From: Flavobacterium profundi
GTDB taxonomy: Bacteria; Bacteroidota; Bacteroidia; Flavobacteriales; Flavobacteriaceae
Direction: 5' to 3'
Assembly (NCBI RefSeq): GCF_006491645.1
Contig: NZ_VDCZ01000001.1
Span: 62,001-126,000 of the forward strand
Length of the DNA: 64,000 nt
Positions 3,141 to 12,758 of this stretch are shown here, in pieces (position 1 is the first letter of the stretch; every line of letters starts with the position of its first letter). The position numbers and the translations under genes are program-made. The notes beneath the pieces are model-generated. The model was not told the origin of the DNA, did not search any database, and worked only from the letters and a program-made list of their open reading frames with translations.

Positions 3141-3171
3141 TTTTTTTAAGTTTAAAAGTTAGACTTCTCGC

Positions 3172-3195
3172 CTCTCGACTACGCTCGAGGTGACG
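3172..3195. repeat. short hairpin-forming intergenic element
   Basis: CTCGA at 3174-3178 pairs with TCGAG at 3185-3189 around a six-base loop, followed by GTGACG. It sits in the 81-bp gap between the adaptor and pump genes. It resembles the larger repeat family nearby (CTCGA...TGACG) but is much shorter. It may act as an mRNA processing or stability hairpin inside the operon; that role is inference. Confidence 0.5.
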
Positions 3196-4298: not shown

Positions 4299-4366
4299 AT
4301 TTAATTTTTATAGGTGGTCTGTCGACGGTTATTTATTTTCTGTTCTCTCTTCACGTCACTTCATGT

Positions 4367-4458
4367 GCGAAGCGTATCGAGAAGTTTTACTTTATATTTT
4401 TTGTTCTCGATACATTTTTTATTGCATTGCATTTCATAAAAAACACTCGAACTAACGG
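4367..4458. repeat. intergenic repeat copy A (forward copy 4403-4458, preceded by a truncated inverted copy)
   Basis: GTTCTCGATACATTTTTT begins at 4403 and the far end CACTCGAACTAACGG ends at 4458, two bases before the TolC stop codon (reverse strand, 4461). A partial inverted copy (GTATCGAGAAGTT) lies at about 4374-4386, so the two could fold together. This is one of eight copies in the first 9 kb. It sits inside an operon, between TolC and the adaptor gene. Confidence 0.8.
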
Positions 4459-4460
4459 CT

Positions 4461-5774
4461 TTATTTCATTAAAAACTGCAAATACTCTTTCGTAAAATTA
4501 TATTCAAAAACGGCTTGCAATACTTCCAATTCTTTCTGAGCCATTTGTGTTTCTGCATGTAGTAAATCGGTTGTTTTTTCTAAACCTTGTGCAAAGCGAT
4601 TTTGACGAATGCGAAAAACTTCCTGAGATTGTTCATATGCCAATTGACTTAATTGCACTTTGTTTTCAGCATCCACTAATTGACGACTCGTTTTAGTGAC
4701 TTCTAAAAGACTTTGTTTTTTATAGTGTTCGGTTTCAATTTTAGCTTTATTAAAATCGGCTTTGGCTTTTTGGGTTTTCCCAATGTTTTTATAGCCATCA
4801 AATACATCCCAAGACAATTGCGCTCCAAGCAAATAGCCTTTCGCTTGAGTTCCTAAAAATTGACTATCGTATAATTGATAATTTCCAAAGGCATTTAAAC
4901 GTGGTAAAAAACCATACTTAGAAGATTGAAACATTTTTTTATACGCTTCGGTTGACTTTTCCATGGCTTGAATATCTTTTCTATTCGCATTCAAACCCAC
5001 CTCAACAGCTTCTAAGGTTACTTCATTGGCTAACGATTCTGCTGGCACATATACTTTTCCATTGGTATCTTCATTTAAAAGAAAAGCCAAATAATCGGAA
5101 GCATTTTGCACATTACTTTTGGCATATTGCAATTGGTTTGTTATTTCGTTTACACGAACTTGTACATTCAACACATCGGTTTTTTGTAGCATACCATTGT
5201 TGAAGTAATTTTCTACTAGTTTTAAATTTCCTTTTGCGGTTTCGTTTGCTTTTTCTAAAACAAGAACAGCTTTGTAAGCCAATTGCAATTGCATATAGGC
5301 TTTGGAAACTTCTAAGACCAAATATTCTTTGGTTCGTTCGGTTTGCAATTGAAAAGCATCCATTTTAGCTTTTGCTGCCTGTCTTCCAAGCAATCCGTCC
5401 ACATTAATTAGCGGTTGTTTGACTTCAATTACAGTTGCAAAATTTTGAGTTTGATCGGGATTATTCAACAAAGCAGGGTTAAAATCAGCTTGGGTTAAGA
5501 TTTCCTGATTTAATTTGGACCCAAATGCCATTAGCGGATTGGTAGTAACTATACCTGTATAAGACACATTTACATTCGGCAAAAACAAAGCATTCGATTG
5601 ACGATAATCGGCTTTTGCAGCTTGATAAGAGGCATCGGCAGCTTGTAGTTGCAAATTTTTCTCAGAAACTTTTTGTAATATTTCTTCTTTTGAAATTGAG
5701 ATGGTTTCCTGACTAAAAACACCTGCTGTAAAAAAGAGTACGCCTGTAAAGAGGTTCCATTTTATATTCTTCAT
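4461..5774 (-). CDS. TolC-family outer-membrane efflux channel
   Basis: Outer-membrane factor of the tripartite pump. It is 437 residues long and has a cleavable signal (MKNIKWNLFTGVLFFTAGVFS, QE follows). Two OEP-type halves are rich in long helices: one around residues 28-230 (AADASYQAAKADYRQSNALF and following) and one around 240-430, with LLGAQLSWDVFDGYKN near residue 320 matching the second strand region. It is the first gene of the operon TolC, adaptor, pump. The promoter and two palindromes lie at 5801-5866 in front of it. The order TolC first is common in Bacteroidota efflux operons. Confidence 0.93.
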   Translation of the reverse strand: MKNIKWNLFTGVLFFTAGVFSQETISISKEEILQKVSEKNLQLQAADASYQAAKADYRQSNALFLPNVNVSYTGIVTTNPLMAFGSKLNQEILTQADFNPALLNNPDQTQNFATVIEVKQPLINVDGLLGRQAAKAKMDAFQLQTERTKEYLVLEVSKAYMQLQLAYKAVLVLEKANETAKGNLKLVENYFNNGMLQKTDVLNVQVRVNEITNQLQYAKSNVQNASDYLAFLLNEDTNGKVYVPAESLANEVTLEAVEVGLNANRKDIQAMEKSTEAYKKMFQSSKYGFLPRLNAFGNYQLYDSQFLGTQAKGYLLGAQLSWDVFDGYKNIGKTQKAKADFNKAKIETEHYKKQSLLEVTKTSRQLVDAENKVQLSQLAYEQSQEVFRIRQNRFAQGLEKTTDLLHAETQMAQKELEVLQAVFEYNFTKEYLQFLMK

Positions 5775-5800
5775 TGCTATTTTGTTCTTAATTTCTGAAA

Positions 5801-5808
5801 CAAAAGTA
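5801..5808 (-). promoter_or_regulatory. -7 box of the efflux operon promoter
   Basis: On the minus strand this reads TACTTTTG, an exact match to the Bacteroidota -7 consensus TAnnTTTG, 26 bases before the TolC ATG. The -33 element is weak (TTG with a 16-base spacer). A poor -33 box is expected where an activator bound at -41 helps polymerase. Confidence 0.6.
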
Positions 5809-5830
5809 CAATGGCAAAATGGCCCAATTG

Positions 5831-5866
5831 GTAACCAAAGTTACACAGACTTGTAACTAAAGTTAC
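5831..5866. promoter_or_regulatory. two tandem 14-bp palindromes, Crp/Fnr-type operator
   Basis: GTAACCAAAGTTAC (5831-5844) and GTAACTAAAGTTAC (5853-5866) are GTAAC-N4-GTTAC palindromes spaced 22 bp centre to centre. Their centres lie 33 and 55 bp upstream of the centre of the -7 box, so about -40 and -62 from the expected start. These are the classic class II and class I activator positions of Crp/Fnr proteins. GTA-N8-TAC geometry is known from that family (for example NtcA). The same palindrome recurs in front of cydA. No regulator gene is in the window. Confidence 0.6.
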
Positions 5867-5908
5867 ATAACTATTTTATTTCCACTATAAGATTTAATGA
5901 ATAAACTG

Positions 5909-6349
5909 AAGTTAATTCGGTTGAAACGTAACTCGATTCGTAATAAGCATAATTTGATTTGGTTTAAACATAACTTAATTAGCAATAAGCAAAACTTAAT
6001 TCGGTTTAAACATAACTTAATTAGCAATAAGCAAAACTTAATTCGGTTTAAACATAACTTAATTAGCAATAAGCAAAACTTAATTCGGTTTAAACATAAC
6101 TTGATTCGTAATAAGCAAAACTTAATTTGGTTTAAACGTAACTCGATTACTAGTTCTATGCAATCGGTTCATAGAACTATGCAATTGATACAGTGTTCTG
6201 TGTAATTGATACATAGTTCTGTGTAATTGATACATAGTTCACTGTATTGAGTTCAGAGTTCTGTGTAATTGATAACTAGTACACTGCAATTGATACACCC
6301 TTCACTGTATTGGAAACATAGTCAAGTGCATTGGTTACATAGTTAACAA
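5909..6349. repeat. 21 tandem units of exactly 21 bp
   Basis: The 441 bp divide into 21 consecutive 21-bp units with no indel. Units 1-12 start AAxTxxATT and alternate two right halves (CGGTTTAAACAT and AGCAATAAGCAA), giving a 42-bp higher order; three copies of the 42-mer (5972-6097) are identical. Units 13-21 change to the form (C/T)AATTGATACATAGTTCxxTG but keep the same phase. Unit 12 is a hybrid of both forms. 21 bp equals two DNA turns. The array lies between the efflux operon promoter and the next gene. It reads open in several frames only because 21 is a multiple of three. Confidence 0.9.
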
Positions 6350-6382
6350 CGCTAAATTTGGTTGAAAAACAATAGAAAAACT

Positions 6383-6412
6383 AGTTCTCGATACTATTTT
6401 TATAAAAAACAT
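6383..6412 (+). repeat. intergenic repeat copy B (truncated)
   Basis: AGTTCTCGATACTATTTTTA marks the left end. The right end (CTCGAACTGACG) is missing. It lies 88 bp past the stop codon of the 180-residue secreted protein gene. The shared variant TACTATTTTTATAAAA links it to copies C and H. The rest of the 5775-6499 gap holds the efflux promoter, its operators and the 21-bp array; I see no gene there. Confidence 0.7.
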
Positions 6413-6499
6413 TCTCTTTGATAGAATAAGTTGCGAGATTTGACAACTCTTCTAAGATTGTATTTTCTTTTCTGTTTTTTTAAAGTAATTTAATAGAGC

Positions 6500-7042
6500 C
6501 TAATGATATTCATTGAATTTTATAGACTCTATTATGTTTGTTCTGAATGCTTTATTTTTATCAAAATTATCACCATCAATCATGAATTGGATAGAATAAA
6601 TAGCACCTTTATAAATAAAACTATAATTTTCTACTATTTTCTTTTGTTCTTGAACTTCTAATACAATTTTGATATAAAAAAACTTCACATTCTCTACAGA
6701 AAAAACTTTGAAATCTTCAGTAGTAGAAAAAGTTTCACTAATGAGCGTTCCCTTAGTAGAATTAAGGACTCCTTTTTTTATCCCTTTTAAAAACTTATTC
6801 ATACCCTTTTCGTCACTTATCTTTGAGGCTTCATTTATTCTATCAAATTTTGTATATACTATAATTTCAGTATCGTATATTCCTCTTATAAATTTTCCAT
6901 TTGCGATTACTCCTTCTTCGGCATTATCAAGAACATCAATAGTAATGTTTTCATCAAATTCATATTGGAATACTTCTTGACTAAAACAATTTAAACTAAA
7001 AAAAACAATAGCATTGTAAATGAATTTTAGCATGAATTTCAT
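6500..7042 (-). CDS. secreted hypothetical protein, paralogue 1
   Basis: 180 residues with a signal peptide ending near CFS-QEV. I do not recognise a named family. It is clearly paralogous to the gene at 9025-9528: both mature proteins begin SQEVFQYEFDEN, share an acidic segment followed by GKF(I/V)(R/K)G, and end with FxYKGxIYxIQFM and a KNxxFRxxIxxSIxFN motif. The fold is probably a small beta-rich exported domain, but that is a guess. Repeat copies flank it on both sides (B downstream, C upstream). Its promoter (-7 box TAGTTTTG at 7062-7069) resembles that of the gene starting at 8819. Confidence 0.8.
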   Translation of the reverse strand: MKFMLKFIYNAIVFFSLNCFSQEVFQYEFDENITIDVLDNAEEGVIANGKFIRGIYDTEIIVYTKFDRINEASKISDEKGMNKFLKGIKKGVLNSTKGTLISETFSTTEDFKVFSVENVKFFYIKIVLEVQEQKKIVENYSFIYKGAIYSIQFMIDGDNFDKNKAFRTNIIESIKFNEYH

Positions 7043-7061
7043 TTTATTAAATTATACTTGA

Positions 7062-7102
7062 CAAAACTAATCTTTTATTTTTCTAAAAAACTACCAAATG
7101 GG
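7062..7102 (-). promoter_or_regulatory. promoter of paralogue 1, homologous to segment 8901-8940
   Basis: On the minus strand TAGTTTTG (7062-7069) fits TAnnTTTG and lies 20 bp before the ATG at 7042. The following bases (reverse of TAATCTTTTATTTT...CTACCAAATG) match the segment at 8906-8939 closely, and both run straight into a repeat copy. A promoter-plus-repeat block seems to have been duplicated. Confidence 0.5.
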
Positions 7103-7175
7103 AGTTCTCGATACTATTTTTATAAAATTGTTTTTTACATTTTATAAAAATCACTCGAACTGACGCAGTGCTGAT
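7103..7175 (+). repeat. intergenic repeat copy C
   Basis: Left end AGTTCTCGATACTATTTTTA at 7103. Right end CACTCGAACTGACGCAGTGC followed by TGAT, ending at 7175. The ends pair (AGTTC with GAACT) and the inner T-run pairs with an A-run, so a single-stranded copy can fold into an imperfect hairpin. Confidence 0.8.
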
Positions 7176-7212
7176 TTAAATTTTTATTACATCCGTTTTG
7201 TTTACTGTTATG

Positions 7213-7278
7213 AGTTCTCGATACATTTTCTACTCCATTTCATTTCGTAAAAAACACTCGAACTGACGCAGTGCTGAT
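7213..7278 (+). repeat. intergenic repeat copy D
   Basis: Full-length forward copy from AGTTCTCGATACATTTTC to GACGCAGTGCTGAT. It contains the inner block CATTTCATTTCGTAAAAAAC shared with copies A and G. It is 37 bp from copy C and in the same orientation. Confidence 0.85.
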
Positions 7279-7312
7279 TACAAAAATAGTAGATAAAATT
7301 ATATTAACGACT

Positions 7313-7366
7313 CGTCAGTTCGATTGGTTTTGTGAAGCGCAACGAAACAAAAATATATCGAGAACT
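7313..7366 (-). repeat. intergenic repeat copy E (inverted)
   Basis: Reads CGTCAGTTCGATTGG ... ATATATCGAGAACT on the plus strand, the reverse complement of the forward copies. The inner block has GTTGCGCTTCAC (minus strand) instead of the CATTTCAT form, so it belongs to a subtype shared with copy F. Confidence 0.8.
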
Positions 7367-7383
7367 CATTTTAATTACCACAC

Positions 7384-7437
7384 CGTCAGTTCGAGTGTTT
7401 TTGTGTAGAGTAACGAAACAAAAATGTATCGAGAACT
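7384..7437 (-). repeat. intergenic repeat copy F (inverted), abutting the GIY-YIG stop codon
   Basis: Reads CGTCAGTTCGAGTG ... ATGTATCGAGAACT on the plus strand. Its last base touches the GIY-YIG stop codon (7437-7439), so on the coding strand the gene ends TAAGTTCTCGATAC and runs directly into the repeat. The 7043-7436 gap consists almost wholly of copies C, D, E and F. Confidence 0.85.
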
Positions 7438-7724
7438 TAAAATTTCTTCTTTGCTAAATTAGGTAAGTCATCAAATTCACCAAATATTAAAGCTTCTTTT
7501 TTAGCTCTAGACCACTTTTTTATTTGCTTTTCTTTTTGAATTGCAATAGTAATATCCGTAAACTCAGCATAGAAAACCAATAAAACTGGTCTCCTATTAA
7601 AAGTATAACAATCTTGAAAAACACCATTTTCATGCTGAAAAATACGTTGCGAAAGATTACTTGTAACTCCTGTATAATAAGTGTTATCAGAACATTTTAA
7701 AATATATACATAAGAAGCTTTCAT
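7437..7724 (-). CDS. small GIY-YIG nuclease domain protein
   Basis: 95 residues, a stand-alone GIY-YIG domain of the UvrC/UPF0213-like type. The N-terminus has YVYILKCSDNTYYTGVT, where YVY and YYTG are the GIY and YIG elements, followed by the helix SNLSQRIFQHENG with the catalytic-type Arg and a His. The C-terminal half has EKQIKKWSRAKKEALI, a basic helix typical of the family. Members of this group occur as several copies in many flavobacterial genomes; their role is unknown. The gene is bounded by inverted repeat copies F (touching the stop codon) and G (17 bp before the ATG), both with the GTTCTCGATAC end facing the gene. That arrangement suggests a link between nuclease and repeat, which is inference. 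Confidence 0.88.
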   Translation of the reverse strand: MKASYVYILKCSDNTYYTGVTSNLSQRIFQHENGVFQDCYTFNRRPVLLVFYAEFTDITIAIQKEKQIKKWSRAKKEALIFGEFDDLPNLAKKKF

Positions 7725-7741
7725 CTATATTTTTTCAAGTG

Positions 7742-7807
7742 AGTTCTCGATACATTTTTCCCTCTATTTCATTTCATAAAAATCACTCAAACTGACGCAG
7801 TGCTGAT
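7742..7807 (+). repeat. intergenic repeat copy G, directly upstream of the GIY-YIG gene
   Basis: Forward copy from AGTTCTCGATACATTTTTCC to CTGACGCAGTGCTGAT. It starts 17 bp before the nuclease start codon and is inverted relative to copy F on the other side of the gene. Confidence 0.85.
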
Positions 7808-7860
7808 TGATTATGTCTGTTTTGAAAAGCGTAATTTGTTTATTTAAGGAAAGAGATTTA

Positions 7861-8316
7861 CTATTTAAGAATCGCTTTTATTTGCTTTTCTAAATCTTTT
7901 ATTCCTTTAAATTTTTTAAAATTTAACTCTTTCCCAGTTGCTTTTAATTCACTAATTAATTCTAGAACGAGTTCCAAAGGTTCTGCTTCAAACCCAAACA
8001 TGTTTTGATCAAATTCTGTTCCAATGATAAGTCCGTCATGATCCATACCAATACACCAATTTTCTATAAATTCCACTAATGGAATTTCAGCAATTTTATA
8101 ATTGGACCATTCTTCTGTTATACAAGATTTTGCCAAAGCAATATCAGACCAAAAGCAAATAATACCAATGGGCTCCTCATCGTAGTTTATATAATTATTG
8201 GATGTAGAAGTTGCGTATCCTTCTGTATCTTTTAGGGTGTAAACAATAGAAGATTTACAAACGTTTTTTATAAATTTTTTATATTGTTTCTCTATTAAAA
8301 TGGAGTCTTGTAGCAT
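7861..8316 (-). CDS. DUF2750 family protein
   Basis: 151 residues, soluble, no signal. The central pattern ICFWSDIALAKSCITEEWSN, IPLVEFIENWCIGMDHDG and FGFEAEPLELVLEL fits the DUF2750 family: a small acidic protein with an FWS...W...I-L-EFL-W..GM-DG core. Such proteins are often found in accessory regions and their function is not established. It lies 5 bp behind the 165-residue membrane protein gene upstream, so the two are probably co-transcribed. Confidence 0.7.
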   Translation of the reverse strand: MLQDSILIEKQYKKFIKNVCKSSIVYTLKDTEGYATSTSNNYINYDEEPIGIICFWSDIALAKSCITEEWSNYKIAEIPLVEFIENWCIGMDHDGLIIGTEFDQNMFGFEAEPLELVLELISELKATGKELNFKKFKGIKDLEKQIKAILK

Positions 8317-8321
8317 TATTA

Positions 8322-8819
8322 TTATTTATAATTATAGAAAACCTTGGGAACAGATTTTATATTTTCAATTTTCTTAATTTGAATCATTCTTTCAAAATCA
8401 TTTAAGACTTGTTCTACTTCTGGCAGATCGCTAACCACTTTGATTTTATACAACTTACATATTGTAAGTGTAGTTAGATATAATCTTTCCTTTTTATATT
8501 TTCGAGCAAATTTTAATCCATATACAAAACCGTAATTTTCATTTTTCAATCTATTTTTAAATTCTAAAATCAGTTCTAATGTAATTCTATTATTTAGTAC
8601 TTGAAAACTACAATGATAGGTATATTCATCTACTATTTTAGAAAACCATTTATCTAATTTTTTCTGTTTAGAATTTTCTAATTCAAAACCAATATCTTCT
8701 AGTTTTTTAAATAAAGGAACATGTTCGAAATTTTTTTTTATTTTCTTTAATTTGAAATGCTCATATATAATAGAACTTATTAGAAACATGACCATTAAAA
8801 CTAAAAATAACATACCCAT
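8322..8819 (-). CDS. hypothetical membrane-anchored protein
   Basis: 165 residues. A single N-terminal hydrophobic segment (GMLFLVLMVMFLISSIIYEH) is followed by a charged cytosol-type domain with several Lys-rich helices and no motif I can name. The start at 8819 sits behind a TAnnTTTG promoter box at 8901-8908. It forms a two-gene unit with the DUF2750 gene, with a 5-bp gap. An accessory pair of this type could be an effector/immunity set, but nothing in the sequence shows it. Confidence 0.6.
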   Translation of the reverse strand: MGMLFLVLMVMFLISSIIYEHFKLKKIKKNFEHVPLFKKLEDIGFELENSKQKKLDKWFSKIVDEYTYHCSFQVLNNRITLELILEFKNRLKNENYGFVYGLKFARKYKKERLYLTTLTICKLYKIKVVSDLPEVEQVLNDFERMIQIKKIENIKSVPKVFYNYK

Positions 8820-8900
8820 AAATTGTTTGATTTTTTTATATATGATAGATTATATCAATTAATTGTTTTATTTATTTGTTTGAATTTCTTTTTTAGCGAG

Positions 8901-8940
8901 CAAAGCTAACCTTTTATTTTATAAAAGAATACCAAATGCT
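8901..8940 (-). promoter_or_regulatory. promoter of the 8322-8819 gene, duplicated segment
   Basis: On the minus strand TAGCTTTG (8901-8908) fits TAnnTTTG. The block running from here into the repeat at 8941 matches the one at 7062-7103, including ACCAAATG just before AGTTCTCGATAC. Two unrelated genes therefore share one promoter-plus-repeat block. Confidence 0.5.
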
Positions 8941-8966
8941 AGTTCTCGATACAATTTTTATAGAAT
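8941..8966 (+). repeat. intergenic repeat copy H (truncated)
   Basis: AGTTCTCGATACAATTTTTA at 8941, the right end lost. It lies 58 bp before the stop codon of paralogue 2. It resembles truncated copy B, which lies the same way round downstream of paralogue 1. Confidence 0.65.
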
Positions 8967-9024: not shown

Positions 9025-9528
9025 TTAGTTAAATTCTATTGAATCTAGAATTTTCTTTCTAAAATCATTATTTTTTTCAAATTCATCTTGTGCATTCATG
9101 AATTGAATTGTGTATATAAAACCTTTATAAAAAAAATTAAAGCTTTGGGTTCTTTTACTTTCTCCTCCTGCAACAAAATCTATTGTAAAGGAATAGATTT
9201 TAACATCGTTCAAAACAAATTCTTCCTCACTCACAAGCTTTCCTTTTGCAGACTTTAGCAGGCCATCTTTAACTCCTTTAAAAAAATTAACTTTCTTTTT
9301 TTCATCCTTACCTTTAAAGATATCTTTTGGTTTATCTGAACTTAGGTAAACAATAATTTCATTTCCAAAGGCACCTTTTACAAATTTCCCATCTAGTAAT
9401 TCACCTTCTTCAGCTTCTTCAACAACATCAATAGTTAGATTTTCATCAAATTCATATTGAAAAACTTCCTGACTAAAACCATGTAAATTAAAAAGTACGA
9501 AAACCGCAAAAAATAGTATTTTTTTCAT
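9025..9528 (-). CDS. secreted hypothetical protein, paralogue 2
   Basis: 167 residues from the ATG at 9528. The frame opens further upstream at 9555, but the internal start gives a clean signal peptide (MKKILFFAVFVLFNLHGFS, QE follows). It is paralogous to the 6500-7042 product: same mature N-terminus SQEVFQYEFDEN, same GKFVKGAFGNEIIVY segment and same C-terminal motif FFYKGFIYTIQFM. Family unknown. A strong terminator follows. Finding both copies within 3 kb, each with a truncated repeat downstream, points to local duplication. Confidence 0.8.
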   Translation of the reverse strand: MKKILFFAVFVLFNLHGFSQEVFQYEFDENLTIDVVEEAEEGELLDGKFVKGAFGNEIIVYLSSDKPKDIFKGKDEKKKVNFFKGVKDGLLKSAKGKLVSEEEFVLNDVKIYSFTIDFVAGGESKRTQSFNFFYKGFIYTIQFMNAQDEFEKNNDFRKKILDSIEFN

Positions 9529-9673
9529 ATTAAAATTTTTTATATATCTATTCAATTTATAAACAAGCTACTTTTCATTTTGAAAATAGCTAGGCAAATC
9601 TACTATTTAAAAATTTAAATCTATTATCTTTTTTTATATTTAAAATCTCATTTAAAATAAAAATATTACTATT

Positions 9674-11177: not shown

Positions 11178-12758
11178 TTACAGTATATAATCGGTATTAA
11201 TGAAATTACTTTTTTTACTGTCTAATAACTCTTGTAAAATAGCATTGTTATAGTCGTTATCTTTTGACGCAACAAAAGTTCGTATCGAAAACGAGCGCAA
11301 CGCGTCATGAATACTCAAGGTTCCTACAGCAGAATCTTTTCTTCCAGTAAACGGAAAAACATCTGGACCTCTTTGGCACGAACTATTTAAATTAACCCTA
11401 CACACTAAGTTAACTAAAACATCAATTAGCGGTGCTACTGTGGTAATGTCTTTTCCAAAAAGACTCACTTGTTGCCCATAATCAGAAGCCGCCATATCAT
11501 CTAAAGGCTCTTGTATGTCTTTAAAGGTTAAAATCGGCACGACTGGTCCAAACTGCTCTTCGTGATACACTCGCATCGCTTTATTTACAGGAAACAAAAC
11601 CGCTGGAAAAATATAATTTTCCATGCGTTCGCCCCCTCTTTCGTTGATAATGTTGGCACCATTTGCTTTGGCATCATCAATTAATTCTTGGATATAATCG
11701 GGCTTATCCGGCTCAGGAAGTGGTGTTAAAAACACATTTTCTTCCCAAGGATTACCAAATTTTAGCGCATCTACTTTGGCAGCAAAACGCTTGTTGAATT
11801 CTTCAGCAATCGATTCGTGTACATAAATCACTTTTAAAGCTGTACAACGTTGTCCGTTAAACGAAAGTGATCCTGTAATACATTCAGAAACGGCCAAATC
11901 TAAATTCGCATCAGGTAAAATGATGGCTGGGTTTTTGGCTTCCAAACCTAAAATCAAACGCAATTTGTTTTTATTCGGATGCAAATCTTGTAAGGCAATC
12001 GCAGATTTACTATTTCCTATTAAAGATAAAACCGTAACCAACCCCGATTTCATAATGGGTGCCGCCACTTCTCTACCGCGTCCGTATAAAATATTGATAA
12101 CACCTTTTGGGAACGAACTTTGGAACGCTTGTAACAAAGGAGCTAATAATAAAACACCAAATTTTGCCGGTTTAAACAATACGGTGTTTCCCATAATTAA
12201 AGCTGGAATTAATAAAGAAAAGGTTTCATTCAAAGGATAATTATACGGACCCAAACACAAAACCACACCCAACGGACTCCTTTTAATCATGGCATTAATA
12301 CCTTGCACTTTTTGAAAGCGATTGCCTTCCTGATTTAAGGCTTTGTAATCTTTTATCGTGTCATAAATATATTCTACGGTTCGATCAAATTCCTTTTCGC
12401 TATCCGGTAAGGTTTTCCCAATTTCCCACATTAATAATTTAACCACTTCCGAACGCGTTTGTTCCATTTGTTTTACAAATTGCTCCATGCATTTGATACG
12501 GTCTTGTACTTTCATGGTAGGCCAATCACCCTGACCATTATTATAAGCTTTGTGTGAAGACTCTAAAGCTGCTAAAGCAGCCGCTTCATTCATATTTGGT
12601 ACAGAACCCAATAAAGTAGGTTGATAATTAGTCGTTGTAGAAATGGAAGAATATACCTCAGCCGTTTCACCTTCCCAAATTTTAAGTTCGCCATCTAGCA
12701 AATAGTCTTTTTGATGCCAAGGTTGTTGCAGTTGTATTTTTTCTGGAATTGTTGTCAT
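11178..12758 (-). CDS. gapN: NADP-dependent non-phosphorylating glyceraldehyde-3-phosphate dehydrogenase
   Basis: Aldehyde dehydrogenase superfamily, 526 residues from the ATG at 12758 ([15 protein letters not shown]). The longer reading from 12824 would add 22 unlikely residues. Visible features are the [19 protein letters not shown] segment, the cofactor-binding region with LFKPAKFG, the catalytic Glu in [15 protein letters not shown] (about residue 273) and the catalytic Cys in [11 protein letters not shown] (about residue 305). [10 protein letters not shown] is typical of the GapN subgroup. It oxidises glyceraldehyde-3-phosphate to 3-phosphoglycerate while making NADPH. Single gene with its own terminator. 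Confidence 0.85.

Follow-up and report, generated by a model that had tools for sequence, protein, structure and literature searches.

In the window analysed here, a stretch of 64,000 nucleotides from Flavobacterium profundi, a small GIY-YIG nuclease gene lies between inverted hairpin-forming repeats, and the association of this nuclease with such repeats across homologous loci is essentially certain. We interpret the gene and its flanking repeats as the autonomous unit of a nuclease-REP system whose solo repeats would be non-autonomous, a reading to which we assign a probability of about 0.7 and in which cleavage and spreading are deduced from sequence patterns. A small UPF0213/COG2827-like enzyme would recognise its cognate hairpin, a repeat belonging to the CGTC-REP superfamily and composed of a CGTCA or TGTCA foot, a variable 4-bp stem, a 2-nt GA bulge, GA/TC pairs, and a variable inner loop or stem, and would probably nick it as single-stranded DNA. 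The gene with its flanking repeats would form a unit that is gained and lost in the spaces between genes; repeats scattered as singles, pairs, and clusters would be its non-autonomous relatives, as in RAYT/REPIN systems but with a GIY-YIG enzyme.

An earlier note on this DNA had described a 95-residue GIY-YIG gene between inverted hairpin repeats, one touching the stop codon and the other ending 17 bp before the start; all of this is borne out by the coordinates (Table 1), and the protein matches PF01541 with E = 7.8e-17. The two inverted copies, F and G, turn their GTTCTCGATAC ends towards the nuclease gene and their CGTCA ends outward. Where the note had counted six more copies, four further complete or near-complete ones were found; the sites at 6384 and 8942 are half copies, and that at 4374 is a shorter relative. 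Its statement that copies occur only in the first 9 kb did not hold. With one mismatch at most, GTTCTCGATAC occurs 10 times in the window (0.35 expected; 0 of 100 shuffles reached 10), nine of these sites lying within 4374-8952 and the remaining single-mismatch site at 11282; genome-wide there are 11 exact long copies, and the wider motif GTCASTTCGA-N4..34-TCGAGAAS has 30 copies against 0 for a reversed-pattern control.

Table 1. Nuclease gene and CGTC REP-like repeats in the window (positions count from its first nucleotide).
Feature	Position	Strand	Details
Short-type CGTC REP-like repeat, GTCACCTCGAGCGTAGTCGAGAGG	3171..3194	minus	absent from the earlier note
Fragment of a shorter, C-type relative (GTGCGAAGCGTATCGAGAAGTT)	4365..4386	plus	
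Long-type CGTC REP-like repeat, degenerate foot (AACTAACG)	4403..4457	minus	
Half copy, GTTCTCGATAC end only	6384..6410	minus	
Long-type CGTC REP-like repeat, long inner stem	7104..7165	minus	fold z = -4.0
Long-type CGTC REP-like repeat	7214..7268	minus	
Long-type CGTC REP-like repeat	7313..7366	plus	89% identical to copy F and in tandem with it (spacing 71)
Long-type CGTC REP-like repeat, copy F	7384..7437	plus	CGTCA foot at 7384, away from gene; abuts stop codon (TAA, then GTTCTCGATAC)
GIY-YIG nuclease gene, intact, 95 aa	7437..7724	minus	ATG at 7724, stop codon 7437-7439
Long-type CGTC REP-like repeat, copy G	7742..7797	minus	foot outward; 17 bp upstream of start codon; one stem mismatch (CTCAAACTGACG)
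Half copy, GTTCTCGATAC end only	8942..8965	minus	

The active-site residues Y7, Y17, R27, H31, and E65 of the nuclease are invariant in 23 homologues. Its AlphaFold2 model has a mean pLDDT of 89.5. The UPF0213 proteins BH0048 (1zg2) and EF2693 (1ywl) come first among its PDB neighbours, followed by Slx1, and these two UPF0213 proteins are the nearest solved relatives by sequence as well as by fold. The F. profundi genome has five GIY-YIG places. The closest paralogue, on contig 19, is 60% identical and has short-type repeats such as GTCAGTTCGAGCGGAGTCGAGAAC on both sides, one of which forms the end of the paralogue's own reading frame (GLDSARPD). The earlier picture of a single-copy nuclease serving many palindromes needs correcting in detail, since this paralogue comes with its own cognate repeat type. 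At eight loci (L001, L070, L071, L107, L119, L129, L131, and L151), the downstream repeat reads in frame as the C-terminal tail of the nuclease; such repeat-derived tails read GLDSARPD, GFDSAQPD, HPSTGSG, or NPSTSSG. Another small GIY-YIG gene of the same genome (contig 7, L004:1429-1842) adjoins a tRNA-Asn gene and has its stop codon inside a fragment that duplicates the anticodon arm of tRNA-Asn (TCTGACTGTTAATCAGAG); this gene may use the tRNA gene much as the window gene uses its REP.

The association was measured in 80 homologous loci from named genomes, with 762 ORFs in the same loci as controls, by scoring a strict structural repeat (GTCA-X4-GA...TCGA-X4') at most 200 bp from a gene. Such a repeat accompanies 70 of the 80 nuclease genes (88%) and 38 of the 762 control ORFs (5.0%), and it is present on both sides at 49 nuclease loci (61%) versus five control ORFs (0.7%), an enrichment of about 18-fold at the gene and about 90-fold for both sides. 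None of the 80 nuclease loci scored with any of seven permuted or foreign feet, GTAG among them. Read by eye, every one of the ten strict misses has variant copies on both sides, for example with the foot GTCT (L085, L154) or GTTGA (L145) or the core GCCGA (L124, L138, L146). The earlier note had proposed to ask whether copies flank GIY-YIG genes above chance, which they do, and had named GIY-YIG genes routinely lacking copies as an argument against the link, which these counts contradict. It had also remarked that both copies present the same end to the gene. Of the 53 loci with repeats on both sides, 22 have their nearest repeats feet-outward, 22 in tandem, and nine feet-inward; the arrangement of the window is thus a commonest one, level with tandem, but no rule.

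Among 120 Flavobacteriaceae genomes, presence of the nuclease predicts the repeat (odds ratio 6.7, p = 3e-6), and the mean number of repeat copies is 5.7 in genomes with the nuclease versus 1.3 in those without. Several other REP-rich genomes at first scored as enzyme-free proved on profile re-search to have another GIY-YIG subfamily, whose genes sometimes lie beside CGTC-like or other palindromes. Genomes with many repeats and no homologue, which the earlier note would have counted against the link, do occur: G070 (20 exact copies) and G093 (six) have no nuclease homologue even after profile re-search. Repeats therefore persist without the enzyme, which fits enzyme loss and fits independence as well. 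Elsewhere in the locus set, L203 carries a tandem array of repeat pairs beside the nuclease gene (11 repeat copies, spacing about 105 bp), suggesting local amplification of a repeat pair, and a contig carrying a Klebsiella pneumoniae MAG label (L154) bears a flavobacterial-type nuclease unit, its label probably being a binning error.

The repeats share a common plan. The foot GTCA, usually as CGTCA or TGTCA, is followed by a variable four-base stem X4 and GA; after a loop or inner stem come TC, a GA bulge, and the X4 complement. The middle is GAGTG, a variable hairpin, and TGTATCGA in the long type and a loop of 5 to 6 bases in the short type. When motifs near the nuclease gene were picked by foot and core only, without selecting for pairing, 170 of the 263 distinct motifs had fully complementary stems, whereas 500 shuffles gave a mean of 39.9 and a maximum of 57, and the complementary X4 stem came in 21 sequence versions. 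Copy F folds into the foot, bulged stem, and inner stem, but its stability is not above that of shuffles, and the same holds for most hairpins of the window, the exception being the copy at 7104-7165 with its long inner stem; because single-copy folding energies are unremarkable, the structural claim is based on the covariation. Around some nuclease genes (L085, L154, L145, and L156), the foot itself is altered, with GTCT, GTTGA, or GGTTT replacing GTCA, which suggests that foot and enzyme change together.

Repeat type also follows the nuclease. On the nuclease tree with 72 labelled rows, the type (long or short) changes twice, compared with a shuffled mean of 23.7, and none of 500 shuffles was as low. 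The two F. profundi paralogues have different repeat types, each being the type of its own clade, and two paralogues in one genome of Flavobacterium fluviatile (L109/L125) likewise differ in type and match their clades. Since paralogues in one genome differ in repeat type, host lineage is no explanation for the type matching. Clade matching and covariation together make it very probable that the nuclease recognises its cognate repeat.

The link between nuclease and repeat is not specific to flavobacteria but reaches Alphaproteobacteria, Cyanobacteria, Nitrospinota, and Nitrospirota. Distant homologues with flanking foot-plus-hairpin repeats come from a small cross-phylum sample whose plasmid flanks were assessed with a relaxed scan and by visual inspection. 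They lie in plasmid records of Azospirillum (between sufB and sufC), Shinella, Rhizobium, Methylobacterium (two), Sinorhizobium, Planktothrix, and Spirosoma, which belongs to the Bacteroidetes but not to the flavobacteria (Cytophagia). The stems of these repeats are entirely different, and several are canonical CGTC REPs (CGTCATCCCCGCGAAGGCGGGGATCCA). The main locus set also includes loci with repeats from Nitrospinaceae (two), Nitrospirae (one), and Ignavibacteria (two). At a Sphingomonas locus, copies lie on a single side, and flanking repeats are absent from a frameshifted Sphingomonas gene, from an Acidiphilium gene next to a tRNA, and from B. subtilis yazA, which differs from the window gene in belonging to a housekeeping gene cluster.

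CGTC-tagged REPs are widespread, having been described in 5 phyla including Bacteroidetes, with Gramella forsetii as a positive species (Di Nocera, De Gregorio and Rocco 2013, PMC3733652). That survey examined transposase genes, reported that these REPs "apparently lack a dedicated transposase," and makes no link in its text between repeats and a nuclease gene; it left unanswered whether any enzyme spreads them, and which. The repeat class itself is already described; what is added is that a specific enzyme family can now be named, and the GIY-YIG enzyme is, on the sequence evidence, the candidate that best fits the role of the missing CGTC REP partner. Published CGTC REPs and the present repeats share an unpaired CGTC/TGTC/CCTC foot, an imperfect short hairpin with heterogeneous stems, and occurrence as intergenic singles and inverted dimers; the window copies begin with an unpaired CGTCA, and the complementary arms of the stem-loop are seen in the 170 motifs above. 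Alphaproteobacterial copies at GIY-YIG genes agree with the published description (CGTC foot, AT-first stem, CCA tail), and the Azospirillum, Shinella, and Rhizobium copies have the published stem and loop lengths. The flavobacterial repeats, which also flank GIY-YIG genes, have a 4-bp outer stem, a 2-nt GA bulge, and a varied loop, which in long-type copies is replaced by a variable inner stem. This mismatch in stem and loop places them outside the four published CGTC REP families, and they would be at most a divergent branch of the superfamily.

The likeness to RAYT/REP systems that the earlier note proposed, together with its nuclease-repeat link, is strongly supported by flank enrichment, clade matching, the comparison with Y1_Tnp genes given below, and site polymorphism. 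As with RAYT (TnpA-REP) and REPINs, the enzyme gene is flanked by a cognate foot-plus-hairpin repeat, solo copies occur elsewhere as seemingly non-autonomous singles and inverted pairs, and enzyme and repeat appear to coevolve. Unlike RAYT, the enzyme is a GIY-YIG nuclease, not an HUH Y1 transposase, the foot is CGTCA, not GTAG, and movement is putative.

A second precedent is the work of Chenal and colleagues (2025, Nat Commun), in which Ssn proteins are reported to be site-specific GIY-YIG nucleases cutting single-stranded DNA. The Neisseria Ssn reportedly acts on the NTS repeat and affects transformation, and thousands of Ssn homologues with different specificities are said to exist. We take the window nuclease to be probably related to the Neisseria enzymes; it is a small stand-alone GIY-YIG protein with its catalytic residues present and, as is reported for Ssn, is linked to a many-copy repeat. 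Ssn work on Neisseria tempers novelty, and no published link between a GIY-YIG gene and REPs was found in the literature searched. From the foot-plus-hairpin form of the target and the Ssn precedent, we infer single-stranded cleavage; binding, strand cleavage, and a role of the cut in repeat spread are all predicted from sequence, and mobilisation of the repeats by the nuclease cut is plausible, at about even odds. More tentative still, and somewhat short of even, is the wider proposal that small GIY-YIG nucleases are the missing mobilisers of the whole CGTC-REP superfamily, a second, HUH-independent REP system in which nuclease, hairpin target, and solo repeats would co-evolve in at least five phyla.

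The strongest rival retains recognition and drops mobility: the nuclease would cut the repeat in incoming single-stranded DNA and modulate natural transformation or recombination, and the repeats would be genome marks spread by ordinary recombination. We regard this as a serious possibility but lean against it. It involves the same enzyme superfamily and the same logic as the reported Neisseria system, and all of the evidence for cognate recognition fits it equally; moreover, the Neisseria dRS3 repeats are CGTC-1 REPs (PMC3733652). For a fixed host function, however, two observations are unexpected. Nuclease genes that are closely similar (83-89% identical) often lie in unrelated neighbourhoods, with no common neighbouring genes (L096/L106, L110/L121, L084/L092), and the entire repeat-gene-repeat unit varies in presence at an orthologous site, an intergenic region aligned in 30 Flavobacterium genomes that lies upstream of a cutC-like gene. 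Twelve of these genomes have repeat-gene-repeat (559-1114 bp, 2-11 repeats), six have repeats without the gene, three of them only with another CGTC-like repeat (GTCATTGCGAG), and 12 have neither gene nor repeats (52-165 bp). The polymorphism could reflect loss as well as gain. Comparison of one pair (L183 and L186) points to precise loss or gain of a single repeat between short direct repeats (CCAATT).

This orthologous comparison, which the earlier note had proposed in order to find clean insertions, thus yielded filled and empty sites but no clean insertion ends: repeats are clustered, the intergenic DNA has diverged, exact ends could not be fixed, and no target-site duplication or precise boundary was established between filled and empty cutC sites. 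Around the window gene, virtually nothing but the gene and repeats matched among 61 congeners, and that locus gave no filled/empty pair. A second kind of repeat (GTCATTGCGAGGAACGAAGCAA, often as an inverted pair) also occurs upstream of cutC in some Flavobacterium species (L183, L185, L186, L200, and L206), and several CGTC-like repeat families therefore use one site.

An unlikely alternative is that the GIY-YIG gene is a homing parasite that inserts into pre-existing REPs as landing sites, the REPs spreading by another route. The gene is indeed found within repeat clusters, REPs exist without it, the downstream REP reads into frame in many nuclease genes, and the other small GIY-YIG gene of the F. 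profundi genome sits between a tRNA-Asn gene and a tRNA-Asn fragment. However, the tracking of nuclease clade by repeat type and the higher copy number in nuclease genomes imply that the enzyme acts on the repeats in some way, and no other candidate mobiliser was found. Mobilisation by a tyrosine (HUH) RAYT, with a secondary GIY-YIG association, is very improbable. In Bacteroidetes, atypical secondary structures do flank genes of TnpAREP subclass 2.6 (PMC6006769), but a RAYT partner is rejected for the F. profundi genome, which has no Y1_Tnp (PF01797), and is unsupported in the family: the repeat lies near 1 of 30 Y1_Tnp loci versus 29 of 30 GIY-YIG loci in the same genome set, and Y1_Tnp presence is unrelated to the repeat in the 120 Flavobacteriaceae genomes (p = 0.45). 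Least probable of all is coincidence, with the repeats as terminators or mRNA-stabilising hairpins by many genes and the nuclease as a bystander; the repeats are intergenic hairpins and about 5% of other genes have one nearby, but the comparison with control genes rejects this idea, and clade matching and the recurrence in other phyla with different repeat sequences oppose it too.

For the nuclease-REP reading, natural filled and empty sites and the matching of enzyme and repeat across and within genomes open the question to experiments with a single purified protein and a small set of oligonucleotides. The matched enzyme-repeat pairs are numerous and, if the enzyme does recognise hairpin targets, would also form a ready set of site-specific nucleases.

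The window has two other features. Positions 6500-7042 and 9025-9555, which bracket the nuclease region, encode two similar small proteins without a Pfam family, suggesting a local duplication, and the intergenic stretch 5900-6350, upstream of a TolC-like gene, consists of minisatellite-like 21-bp repeats in several variants such as GTGTAATTGATACATAGTTCT.
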